64,000 nt of DNA from Desulfitobacterium dehalogenans ATCC 51507 (GTDB taxonomy: Bacteria > Bacillota > Desulfitobacteriia > Desulfitobacteriales > Desulfitobacteriaceae): assembly GCF_000243155.2 (NCBI RefSeq), contig NC_018017.1, positions 3,596,001-3,660,000 on the forward strand, written 5' to 3'. Both the position numbers and the translations under genes were made by a program. The number at the start of each line of letters is the position of its first letter. Positions within the stretch are counted from its first letter, which is position 1. Below the pieces are notes generated by a model that was not told the DNA's origin, did no database searches, and saw only the letters and a program-made list of their open reading frames with translations. Positions 2,167 to 52,417 of this stretch are shown one piece after another.

Positions 2167-4392
2167 TTATCCTTTGGAAACCTGACATAATCCTTCTTTA
2201 TAGGGAGGGAATCCTGAAATCGGGTCAAAATCACGGGCAATCAAGAGATTGATATCGGCTTTTTCCCACCCATGGAATACATCAATCATTCCAGGCAGAA
2301 TAATATTGGTCACTTCAAGCTTGAATTGCAGCTCACCAAACTTGGTGGAAAGTTTCACATCATCCCCATCTTTAAGACCCCGAGCCGTTGCGTCCACTTT
2401 ATTCATACGCACGATGGGCTCCGGCATGAACTGATTCAACCAAGGCATATGCCTTAACTTGGAGTGGGTGTAGTAGGGAATGCGTGAGCCTGTGTTAAGA
2501 ATAAGGGGAAATTCTTTTGCCAATTCAGGGTTGCTGTTCGGACTGTCCACCGGTTCCTTATATGTGGGTAAGGTATCGAATTGATATTTTCTAAGGATTT
2601 CTGAAGTAAATTCAAACTTCCCGCTGGTCGTAGGAAACCCGGTTTTTCCATCGGGCCGGAATTTCCCACTTTCATATTTTTTAAAGGAATTTGGTTCCTT
2701 AGGAGGAATGGTTAAACCCTCCGGATTCGCCCGCAAATCCTTCAAGGTGATGCCCAACTTAGTAATTCTCAGCAGTTCCTCCAGGCCTTCTTCTTCACTT
2801 CCATTAAAGAACTCTTTCCCATAACCCAGCTTGGTACCTAATTCAAAACAGATCTGCCAGTCGGAACGAGATTCTCCCATAGGTTTAACAATGGGCTCCC
2901 GGAAATAGATTGTACGGCCGAAGATGGCAAAGGGGGCCATTCTTTCAAAACACATGGCCGCCGGCAGAACCATATCCATAGTATTATGGGTCATGGGACG
3001 GATATAGTAGTCTGCTGCTACGGTAAATTCCATCTTTTCCAGGGCCTGCTGGTAAAGTTTTGTCTGCGGCCACATCATGGCGTTACCTCCGACCATGAAC
3101 ATGGCTTTAATTTTACCTTGGTCCACGTATTCCGGGAAACGATTCACTTGCATATCATTCACAAAGTGAGCCCACACTGGAAAATCTTCCTTGTCTGCTC
3201 TCTTCTCTTTGATCTGTTGGAATAAATCCGTTTCCCGATTAAATGCCGGATTGCCTGCAAATAAGTCAAAAGGAAGTCCATCGGGCATTTCCAGGCCGCC
3301 CTCAGCATCGATATTCCCCGAAAGAGCAACCACCGAAAGAATGGCTCTGGTATTTTGAGTTCCGTTTGTGCTATGAACCGTGGGAGAAGCACTCCCTATC
3401 CAGGTACCTGGGGTTTCCTGGCCAAACATCTTCGCTGCCGCTTCAATCTTTTCTTTGGGTACCCAAGTGATTTCTTCGGTTTTTTCCGGAGTAAATTCTT
3501 TGACATACTCAGCGAATTCCGTAAAGCCGTGAGTCCATTTTTCTACAAATCCTTGATCATAATAGCCATCCCTCAGCATCACATGCGCAATCCCCAGAGC
3601 CAGGGCTCCGTCGGTCCCGGGACGCAACTGTAAATGTATATCCGCAAGGCTGCTGACCGTCGGGGTCACCCGGGGATCCACGACGATAAATTGGGTTCCA
3701 TTGGCTTTGGCATCACAGAGCTTACCGAACCGAGTGGGCAAAGACCAGGCAGGGTTTAACGACCAGATTAAACATGTCTTAGTCTTGGGACCGGGGTCTG
3801 TTCCCATAGAAACTTTGCCCATGGTGAGGAATCCGGCCATCGCCTCCGCTCTGAAACAGGTGGAGCTTTCATTTCCATAGTTGGGTGAGCCAAAAGTATA
3901 GGCCAATCTCTGCACAGCCGAGCGGGGCTCCTTGGGATCTCCACAATAAAACATGACTTTATCCGCACCATCCTGGGCCTTGATCCCGTTAAACTTCTTA
4001 GCAATGGTCTCATAAGCTTCTTCCCAGCTGATCTGCTTCCAGCCGGGATCAGGGGATCCTTTAGGATTGGTACGGATCACCGGGTGGAGTAAGCGCTCCG
4101 GATCGTATAGCTCCTGTATGCTTGAGACCCCTTTGGCGCAAAGCCGCCCATTCGGGTAATTTTCCCGGGACTCTATGCGGATTATCTTACCTTCCTTTAG
4201 CGTAGCCTTGATACCGCATTTGGGGGTGTGATTACACATATCACAATAAGAGTATCCATAGGATAAGGGACTATCTTCAGCAGCAAAGGCTCCTTCAGGA
4301 TGATAAATATTAAAAGCACTTCCCAAAGCAGCTGCACCGGTTAGGGCAGCACTCCCTTTCAGGAACGTACGTCTCGAAATATTCTTAGCCAT
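2167..4392 (-). CDS. Tat-exported molybdopterin oxidoreductase, catalytic subunit (DMSO reductase family)
   Basis: From the ATG at 4392 the protein is 741 residues and starts with a twin-arginine signal, SRRTFLKGSAALTGAAALG, so it is folded before export. A [4Fe-4S] motif follows (CDMCNHTPKCGIK, then LCAKG), then molybdopterin and dinucleotide-binding domains and a C-terminal MopB-type domain. The segment NESSTCFRAE carries a Cys at the likely Mo ligand position, which places it nearer the PhsA/PsrA (thiosulfate/polysulfide reductase) branch than the Ser-ligated DMSO reductases. The start was chosen because AAGGAGGAG lies 7 bases upstream; a longer in-frame reading has no ribosome site and would bury the Tat signal. 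It overlaps the ferredoxin gene by 8 bp. Substrate unknown. Confidence 0.88.
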   Translation of the reverse strand: MAKNISRRTFLKGSAALTGAAALGSAFNIYHPEGAFAAEDSPLSYGYSYCDMCNHTPKCGIKATLKEGKIIRIESRENYPNGRLCAKGVSSIQELYDPERLLHPVIRTNPKGSPDPGWKQISWEEAYETIAKKFNGIKAQDGADKVMFYCGDPKEPRSAVQRLAYTFGSPNYGNESSTCFRAEAMAGFLTMGKVSMGTDPGPKTKTCLIWSLNPAWSLPTRFGKLCDAKANGTQFIVVDPRVTPTVSSLADIHLQLRPGTDGALALGIAHVMLRDGYYDQGFVEKWTHGFTEFAEYVKEFTPEKTEEITWVPKEKIEAAAKMFGQETPGTWIGSASPTVHSTNGTQNTRAILSVVALSGNIDAEGGLEMPDGLPFDLFAGNPAFNRETDLFQQIKEKRADKEDFPVWAHFVNDMQVNRFPEYVDQGKIKAMFMVGGNAMMWPQTKLYQQALEKMEFTVAADYYIRPMTHNTMDMVLPAAMCFERMAPFAIFGRTIYFREPIVKPMGESRSDWQICFELGTKLGYGKEFFNGSEEEGLEELLRITKLGITLKDLRANPEGLTIPPKEPNSFKKYESGKFRPDGKTGFPTTSGKFEFTSEILRKYQFDTLPTYKEPVDSPNSNPELAKEFPLILNTGSRIPYYTHSKLRHMPWLNQFMPEPIVRMNKVDATARGLKDGDDVKLSTKFGELQFKLEVTNIILPGMIDVFHGWEKADINLLIARDFDPISGFPPYKEGLCQVSKG

Positions 4393-31214: not shown

Positions 31215-31520
31215 CTATGCTGTATTGATCTCATTTTCTTTTTCAATCAAACTCAAAACTGAGGCAAGCCCCTTAGCTTGGGAGTAATATACTTTCTTAT
31301 TACACTTTCTAGCTACATCTTTTGCATCCCACATGCTGAGATGGGAGCAAACCATTTGCACGATAATCACACAATCTGCGCCTTTTATGATGTTTTCCAA
31401 CAGTTTTTTGTTGTTCCTTCTCGGCACACCATCATGGAAGCGCAATTCTATGTTATTTAACTTGCCTATGGATTTGCTATGTCTCTCGAAATTATATCCG
31501 CCTATAATCGCTATCTTCAT
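31215..31520 (-). CDS. DUF2325 protein
   Basis: A 101-residue protein starting [14 protein letters not shown] with [18 protein letters not shown] in the middle and [18 protein letters not shown] near the end, the pattern of the small DUF2325 family of unknown function. A strong AAAAGGAGGTGG site precedes the ATG. It has its own sigma-A promoter and a leader of about 170 bases with strong structure, so its expression is likely controlled at the RNA level. It lies just downstream of the metal island but is transcribed independently. Confidence 0.85.
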
Positions 31521-31529
31521 TGGGAATCC

Positions 31530-31645
31530 ACCTCCTTTTCAAACGTGAAGGCATATCCATTTCTGGGTATACCCGAGGGCATATCGCCCTGGCCGACCAA
31601 CCATGGATTACTCTTTAGGTCGCTTCGGCTCGGAGACAATTATAA
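31530..31645 (-). ncRNA. Structured 5' leader of the DUF2325 gene, candidate riboswitch
   Basis: Between a promoter (31697-31725) and the DUF2325 start lies a leader rich in complementary segments on the minus strand: AGGGC/GCCCT around GATAT; GGGTATACCC; ATCCAT pairing with ATGGAT across about 45 bases; and GATATGCC occurring twice. There is no U-run, so translational control is likely. GCCAGGGCGA and the 3' GATATGCCTTCAC remind me of the Moco/tungsten-cofactor riboswitch group, but I could not align it properly. Treat the class as unassigned. Confidence 0.5.
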
Positions 31646-31696
31646 ACTTCTTCTCGATCAAAACTAACTAGAACACACTACTCCATATTATGATTT

Positions 31697-42290: not shown

Positions 42291-42387
42291 TGGCGGGAAT
42301 GTGTAGGAGTCGAACCTACCTCGGCCGGATCACCCACCCGACAACGGATTTGAAGTCCGCGGAACCCACCGGGATCCATCCATTCCC
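42291..42387 (-). tRNA. selC: tRNA-Sec (anticodon UCA)
   Basis: A 97-base tRNA with the encoded CCA end. The acceptor stem is GGGAATG/CATTCCC, the anticodon loop CTTCAAA gives UCA, there is a long variable arm, and the T-loop is GGTTCGACTCC. The unusual length and long extra arm are typical of selenocysteine tRNA. It lies between fdhE and selA. Confidence 0.97.
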
Positions 42388-51658: not shown

Positions 51659-51704
51659 AGGGTCTCCTTTCGTTTGCTTGGATCTTGGATCTTGTCCGGG
51701 TCGC

Positions 51705-51882
51705 GTAGCTTTACGCACAACGGTCACTCTGTAGCTCCGGGGCTGGTTCACTCGCTTTCTTAACAGCTCCCGCCAAACCCCGCTGCTTTCTGCATGTTAA
51801 CCATGGCTCCGCTACGTTAAGAAAGCCTCGTTCACCTAGCCGCCCCTCCACTAAAGCCGTTCCCTTTTGTGCGTAAAGCTAC
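51705..51882. repeat. Large inverted-repeat element 1 (cloverleaf-like) upstream of cdd
   Basis: The 178-bp element is bounded by a perfect 16-bp inverted repeat (GTAGCTTTACGCACAA at 51705-51720 with its complement at 51867-51882). Inside, CTTTCTTAAC (51755-51764) pairs with GTTAAGAAAG (51816-51825). It holds no credible gene. It shares the end motif GCTTTAC with element 2 and lies in the spacer between two genes that are usually adjacent. It may be a mobile miniature element or a structured RNA; the strand is unknown. Confidence 0.7.
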
Positions 51883-51898
51883 TGCTTACAGGACTCTT

Positions 51899-51972
51899 TT
51901 CAGCCCAGCTCTTGGGGCCTTTTCAGCTCAACTTTCAGGGCTCCTTCAGCCCTGCTCTTGGGGCTCTTTAAG
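51899..51972. repeat. Direct repeat of about 28 bp between the two cloverleaf elements
   Basis: TTCAGCCCAGCTCTTGGGGC (51899-51918) recurs as TTCAGCCCTGCTCTTGGGGC (51945-51964), with similar following bases, at a 46-bp offset. The flanks are also rich in CAG/CTT words. No gene explains it. Confidence 0.65.
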
Positions 51973-52154
51973 TTTTTTCTTAAGGTTCCAGGCCCTTAAG
52001 GAATTCCTGATGTAAACTTCAGCGCCTTTCCTGGAGTAGCTGACCATGCCGCTCAAGCGGCGTCGGCAAAGGCGGAAAAAGCGGCTCGGATAAGACGCTT
52101 GCCCCACAACAGCTCCCACAACGCCCCACTTGCTCAGACCCGAAAAGCAGCCCA

Positions 52155-52362
52155 AGGATTTTGCTTTACAAAAGGGAGCGAATTTAAGCGAGCGGAAACA
52201 AAACTTCGCGAAAAGCATGCAGCGGAGTCGGGTTGGAAACAGGATGTTTCCAACCGCCCATTGAGCAGGAGCGATTTGGGCGGCGTCCCGACGGAGCGGA
52301 GGGCTTTTCGCGTTAGTTTTGTCCGCGCAGCTTATTGAGCGACCGGTGTAAAGCAAAATCCT
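52155..52362. repeat. Large inverted-repeat element 2 with nested hairpins upstream of dgkA-cdd spacer
   Basis: The 208-bp element has nested complementary arms. The outer perfect 16-bp stem is 52155-52170 with 52347-52362 (AGGATTTTGCTTTACA). A long second stem, 52178-52216 with 52303-52340, includes CGCGAAAAGC and CAAAACT blocks. GTCGGG (52227-52232) pairs with CCCGAC (52287-52292). Within are a perfect 10-bp hairpin (52231-52240/52246-52255, loop AGGAT) and a second hairpin, GCCCA/TGGGC. The whole is a branched fold, too regular for chance. Structured RNA or a miniature mobile element are both possible. Confidence 0.75.
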
Positions 52363-52417
52363 GGAGACATCCGGTGAATCCCGAAAATCCCCAAAGCCCC
52401 CGCTTCTGACAGCTTTT

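Follow-up and report, generated by a model that had tools for sequence, protein, structure and literature searches.

The gap between cdd and dgkA in the chromosome of Desulfitobacterium dehalogenans ATCC 51507 holds two branched hairpins, E1 and E2, which face outward as the arms of a single unit belonging to a hairpin repeat family. The unit lies in a window of 64,000 nucleotides (NC_018017.1, positions 3,596,001 to 3,660,000) that is part of a genome consisting of one contig of 4,321,753 bp. The family is large, its paired hairpins are interspersed, and it has apparently not been described so far.

Organization of the cdd-dgkA unit

Both genes lie on the minus strand, and the gap between them measures 759 bp, in agreement with the ~750 bp given in an earlier note on this DNA. 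That note described two elements with perfect 16-bp inverted repeats sharing GCTTTAC, and we confirmed their coordinates and their lengths of 178 bp (E1) and 208 bp (E2), together with the inner stems and the two perfect hairpins of E2 (Table 1). The open reading frames that cross the elements (e.g., 51946-52356 on the minus strand, 136 aa) extend across the repeat and do not represent credible genes, in agreement with the note. Beyond these earlier observations, both elements proved to be multicopy, E1 turned out to be related to E2 in inverted form, and flanks and linker are recurrent as well. At most loci, E1 is preceded by (T/C)(C/T)CGGGTCGC or close variants, and other copies have a linker of ~37 to 300 bp, the ends of which are conserved.

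Compared with dinucleotide shuffles, both elements form far more stable folds, whether treated as DNA or as RNA and whichever strand is taken; for DNA folding, z = -10.2 for E2 and -5.0 for E1, and 0 of 200 shuffles were equally stable. The flanks outside E2 and E1 are complementary but barely beat swapped flanks, and an extra basal helix is not claimed.

Table 1. Features of the E1-E2 unit, in window positions. R1 is the covariance model described in the text.
Feature	Position	Strand	Remarks
Outer left flank of unit	51692-51704		TTGTCCGGGTCGC; recurs upstream of most E1 copies
E1, left arm, ~178-nt branched hairpin	51705-51882	- (E-sense)	Perfect 16-bp ends; at least 40 copies; R1 match
E1 outer stem, 5' side	51705-51720		Pairs with 51867-51882
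E1 inner stem, 5' side	51754-51764		Pairs with 51816-51826
E1 inner stem, 3' side	51816-51826		Pairs with 51754-51764
E1 outer stem, 3' side	51867-51882		Pairs with 51705-51720
Linker between arms	51883-52154		Conserved ends CGCTTGCGGGTCTTTTTCAG ... CTCARACCCGAAAGNCAGCCCA
E2, right arm, 208-nt three-way branched hairpin	52155-52362	+ (E-sense)	R1 match, 233.6 bits
E2 outer stem, 5' side	52155-52170		Pairs with 52347-52362; helix 1, double changes in 8 of 14 pairs
E2 stem	52198-52205		Pairs with 52315-52322; helix 5, double changes in 6 of 8 pairs
E2 inner stem	52207-52216		Pairs with 52303-52312; helix 6
E2 stem closing three-way junction	52227-52232		Pairs with 52287-52292; helix 9, double changes in 6 of 6 pairs
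E2 hairpin A	52233-52253		Stem 52233-52240/52246-52253, perfect; most conserved part, consensus TTGGAAACAGGACGTTTCCAA; helix 10
E2 hairpin B	52254-52283		Stem 52254-52260/52277-52283, perfect; covarying; helix 11
E2 outer stem, 3' side	52347-52362		Pairs with 52155-52170
Outer right flank	52363-52367		GGAGA; follows E2 in nearly all copies

Copy number and arrangement of the arms

A BLAST search of the D. dehalogenans genome recovered at least 40 copies of E1 and at least 40 of E2, with ~80 to 97% identity to the window copies, which rules out single-copy elements. Starting points from pattern scans, 68 for E2 and 55 for E1, clustered into 80 intergenic loci; with the covariance model, these loci contain ~73 distinct E2-type arms, alongside 55 or more E1-type arms. 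By estimate, the ~80 loci make up roughly 1% of the chromosome. E1 and E2 are found close together at 42 loci, in a single order and a single orientation.

The covariance model R1 was built from 22 E2 copies only. It matches E1 over its full length on the minus strand (51704-51883, 49.4 bits, E 3.6e-14) and ~40 other E1 copies, always on the strand opposite their E2 partner. E2 is palindromic, its own reverse complement scoring 39 bits with R1, and the argument rests on the lack of any E1 plus-strand match at E = 1. In addition, the minus strand of E1 and the plus strand of E2 are collinear and similar at both ends. Thus, because the E2-built model matches E1 on the opposite strand, E1 and E2 are diverged arms of one unit, <-E1 linker E2->. 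The new repeat family suggested in the earlier note is borne out by the high copy number and by covariation (see below), whereas the two separate elements that it saw are the arms of one divergent unit.

The same arrangement holds generally: among neighboring arms on opposite strands, 78 pairs are divergent (57 in this genome and 21 in relatives) and 0 convergent, with four further tandem pairs. Arm length ranges from 178 to 300 nt, and insertions of 24 to ~90 nt enlarge the hairpin B apical loop in many E2 copies. Three E2 arms of 119-135 nt (L148:3701-3819, L121:1962-2096, and L211:2957-3090) are devoid of the apical hairpins, apparently through internal deletions between stem arms. Elsewhere (L258:3065-4220), a single gap holds an array of four arms spaced ~300 bp apart, one pointing leftward and three pointing rightward, a case of local tandem arm growth.

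Conservation of the fold

Compensatory changes in the stems, which the earlier note proposed to look for, are abundant. In alignment A1 (22 sequences), 95% of the cells pair and double compensatory changes affect 32 of the 59 base pairs, amounting to 105 double-changed cells compared with 27.3 +/- 3.6 in shuffles and 10-20 in slid controls. Alignment A2 comprises 84 distinct arms from the whole family, with a mean pairwise identity of 61%; here, covariation is seen in 50 of the 57 pairs and amounts to 964 double-changed cells. Because A2, unlike A1, was fitted to the model, its counts lean towards structure. Sequence conservation is concentrated in hairpin A and in purine-rich internal loops, both kept across genera. 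Conservation of the fold of the arms, while the letters changed, is strongly supported.

Covariation of this kind raises the possibility that the arms are structured RNA, with an E-sense transcript folding on its own or within an mRNA and acting as a terminator, an RNase III site, or a regulatory RNA under selection. Transcribed RNA tolerates G-U pairs, which read as G-T on one strand and as A-C on its complement. Among the E2-type arms family-wide (A2), we counted 85 G-U cells, 58 A-C cells, and 151 other mismatches, versus 964 double changes; representatives clustered at 85% identity gave 40 G-U versus 29 A-C, and the coarsest clustering a weak G-U excess (35 versus 13). In the E1 arms, there is an E-sense wobble excess, with 88 G-U versus 43 A-C, or 41 versus 12 after clustering. 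By comparison, G-U and A-C cells numbered 17 and 0 in tRNAs from the same loci, and 46 and 0 in SAM riboswitches taken from the bacterial family of D. dehalogenans; the tRNA control is biased by the preference of ARAGORN for canonical pairs, and the SAM control varies little. The G-U to A-C ratio is near-symmetric in E2 and E-sense-biased in E1, and wobble in both is far below the controls. Pairing in the arms is almost purely Watson-Crick, unlike that in the tRNA and SAM riboswitch controls, which favors a structure kept in DNA over one kept in RNA.

Apart from the very strong covariation and the conserved purine-rich loops, the RNA reading draws on the weak to clear G-U excess (E2 83:59, E1 88:43) and on T-runs within 45 bp downstream in the E-sense at 38 of 66 E2 and 29 of 51 E1 copies. 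However, the frequency of wobbles is about that of mismatches and far below that of double changes, which is not the case in the controls, and the orientation of the units is independent of the neighboring genes. Furthermore, no promoter-like site was found in the linker of the cdd-dgkA copy, and the shortest linkers, at 37 bp, could not accommodate two promoters. A search of Rfam also gave no match at the gathering threshold, the best permissive matches scoring far below the cut-off; elsewhere in the window, Rfam models identify a selenocysteine tRNA gene (42295-42387, minus strand, RF01852) and a molybdenum/tungsten cofactor riboswitch (31516-31647, minus strand, RF01055). We consider the RNA reading rather unlikely. 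The large structured non-coding RNA envisaged in the earlier note would agree with the base-pair covariation, but the near absence of wobble pairs and the independence from gene orientation speak against it. Judged from these pairing patterns, the fold is more likely, though not proven, to be maintained as a DNA-level structure, and some RNA-level constraint is possible given the wobble excess in E1 and, weakly, in E2. This repeat family combines covariation as strong as that of a classic RNA with pairing rules that look more DNA-like, and it offers a natural test case for whether covariation alone proves an RNA.

Genomic placement and homogenization

The units show no orientation preference relative to the adjacent genes (27 sense and 34 antisense), and the gaps that hold them include 15 convergent and only 4 divergent ones (p = 0.02). 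A replication-strand bias initially appeared as 51 to 28; with the terminus placed at the GC skew flip, p = 0.07, and the bias is not claimed.

In a sister species, ~15 of 19 sampled units occupy sites orthologous to units of D. dehalogenans (one by a single flank). At the cdd-dgkA site, this sister species (G002) has both arms, G003 has an E1 remnant, and G009, which belongs to another genus, carries an E2-type arm. In four genomes of a further genus, which we take to be Desulfosporosinus, a unit is invariably present in the gap that separates the RNase E/G gene from the gene for a TIGR03936 protein, and the number of its arms is one, two, or four. Copies at orthologous sites of the sister species and D. 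dehalogenans are usually not mutually closest, from which it follows that copies homogenize. Hence, the positions of the units are old and their contents fluid, an unusual pairing of fixed sites with copies that keep replacing one another. Neither a clean empty site nor a target duplication was found, the more distant cdd-dgkA gaps being too diverged to align; for one unit of the sister species (L193), the flanking region has only weak matches (67-70%) and no comparable site in the D. dehalogenans genome.

Several loci differ from this general picture or add to it. In Desulfosporosinus-like genomes (L083:684-893 and L308:3438-3711), an arm lies beyond cdd towards era and not between dgkA and cdd. 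Four different genera also carry the repeat within a sugar-biosynthesis cluster, at the locus of a Gfo/Idh oxidoreductase (L065, L229-L234, L262, L216, and L164), which suggests that it may travel with the cluster. In another bacterial family (L089, L090, and L092), the cdd-dgkA gap contains an unrelated-looking hairpin repeat with the ends CAGTCTGTGGGC and GCCCACAGAC, the purine motifs of which (GAGCGGAG and GGAGCGA) resemble those of the E1/E2 family.

The same data can be read as function-free foldback DNA, in which covariation would arise, without structural selection, from template switching between palindrome arms or cruciform repair and from gene conversion among ~130 arms. Such single-event arm correction predicts the vast excess of double changes over intermediates, conversion or replacement would explain why orthologous copies are usually not closest, and the near-symmetric G-U and A-C counts in E2 fit as well. 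Yet such correction between arms, for instance during replication, would be expected to remove mismatches and internal loops, and these loops, like hairpin A, have been retained across genera, while the strict divergent pairing and the stable positions need another reason. This explanation seems to us decidedly unlikely.

Distribution and mobility

R1 matches were detected in 35 of the 74 genomes of the order, all within the family of D. dehalogenans and none in the two other families of the order, and the phages, plasmids, and viral contigs searched contained no match to the repeat. A scan of genome contigs with DgkA returned mostly unrelated organisms. The repeat is described nowhere in the open-access literature that we searched, a scope that leaves aside subscription journals and preprints.

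No intact HUH/Y1 transposase is encoded in the genome, which has only two PF01797 places, with in-frame stops or split, both more than 25 kb from any unit. In one relative (G050), an R1-family arm resides inside an IS1182-family insertion sequence (L252:2092-4370; transposase at 2286-3893 on the minus strand, end repeats at 2092 and 4354-4370). The arm and its adjoining sequence are identical in three contigs (L252, L253, and L254), and the flanks past the end of the insertion sequence differ between the two copies in which they are readable. Thus, one dispersal route is as a passenger of an insertion sequence, and it is only in this indirect form, in one relative, that mobility of the family is seen.

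Non-autonomous MITE-like elements with terminal inverted repeats, currently mobilized by a DDE transposase, would account for the perfect 16-bp ends, the dispersed high copy number, and the identical copies within the insertion sequence. However, unit positions are common to species and, in some cases, to genera, sequence conservation reaches past the inverted-repeat ends, and the whole interior is palindromic and covarying. Moreover, the transposase of that insertion sequence was not found at the 80 loci of D. dehalogenans, and the arm in the relative is a passenger devoid of IS-like ends of its own. We regard current mobilization of this kind as highly improbable. The miniature mobile element considered in the earlier note thus fits the ancestry of the family but not the present positions, which are stable between species.

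Proposed explanation

Our preferred reading, to which we assign a probability of about 0.5, is that E1 and E2, homologous hairpins that are long, branched, and divergent with a short linker between them, are the arms of one copy of a non-coding repeat family that works like a giant BIME/REPIN. It builds on the copy number, the divergent pairing rule, the covariation, the positional stability, and the finding that orthologous copies are not closest. The arms would act as single-stranded or cruciform DNA, and a past hairpin-binding enzyme, supplied in trans, could have recognized them and spread them into intergenic DNA. The units would now mostly stay put, with inter-copy recombination and arm-to-arm correction keeping the arms alike and folded. 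The units might also act at gene ends, incidentally or beneficially, for example in termination or in protecting mRNA 3' ends. A bolder version, which we hold to be doubtful, is a new class of divergent branched hairpin pairs with a fold selected in DNA, fixed at their sites over genus-level time and kept by a dedicated hairpin-recognizing host system that would also homogenize the copies. The repeat family provides a search image for a hairpin-recognizing enzyme in Desulfitobacteriaceae.

Comparison with known systems

A retron or group II relic, one of the origins suggested earlier, found no support: there is no Rfam match, no reverse transcriptase ORF at 49.5-54.5 kb of the window (translations read by eye), and the fold consists of simple branched hairpins only. 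Structured RNAs in Rfam share covariation and conserved loops with the E1/E2 family, which differs by its Watson-Crick-dominated covariation and has no match above threshold. In Desulfitobacterium and its relatives, the intervening sequences and expansion segments of rRNA are likewise hairpin insertions with a size of around 100 nt, but they lie inside rRNA and are not intergenic; such an insertion is known from the 5S rRNA of D. dichloroeliminans (PMC7812874). In D. dehalogenans, four of six 16S genes (L223-L226, as opposed to L221 and L222) contain a ~115-nt hairpin insertion near the 5' end, and a link between the repeat and these insertions was rejected, as they have no sequence match to E1 or E2.

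With MITE and foldback elements (e.g., NEMIS), the E1/E2 family shares terminal inverted repeats, non-coding content, and repetition, and it differs in its fully structured interior, family-wide covariation, strict two-arm pairing, and stable positions.

REPINs are REP doublets that form hairpins and are associated with RAYT transposases; they are intergenic, occur in many copies, show compensatory changes, and persist for long times (PMC3116915, PMC8049555). The E1/E2 family resembles them in being intergenic and multicopy, with paired inverted hairpin arms, a spacer, compensatory changes, and long persistence. However, REP units are 20-40 bp long with a GTAG/CGTC-type tag (PMC3733652), whereas the arms described here are branched and 178-300 nt long; E1 begins with GTAG, but within a stem, and E2 begins with AGGA. 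The genome also has no intact RAYT/Y1 gene, and unit positions are conserved between species and partly between genera. Given the unit size and the missing RAYT, we do not count the E1/E2 family as a REPIN member.

Few BIMEs lie in divergent-promoter gaps, and binding of gyrase, IHF, or Pol I is a further hallmark of theirs. The E1/E2 family resembles them in the rarity of such gaps and in forming mosaics of alternately oriented palindromes in intergenic DNA, and it is set apart by its size, its branched fold, and an arm order that, save for a few tandems, is always divergent and never convergent.
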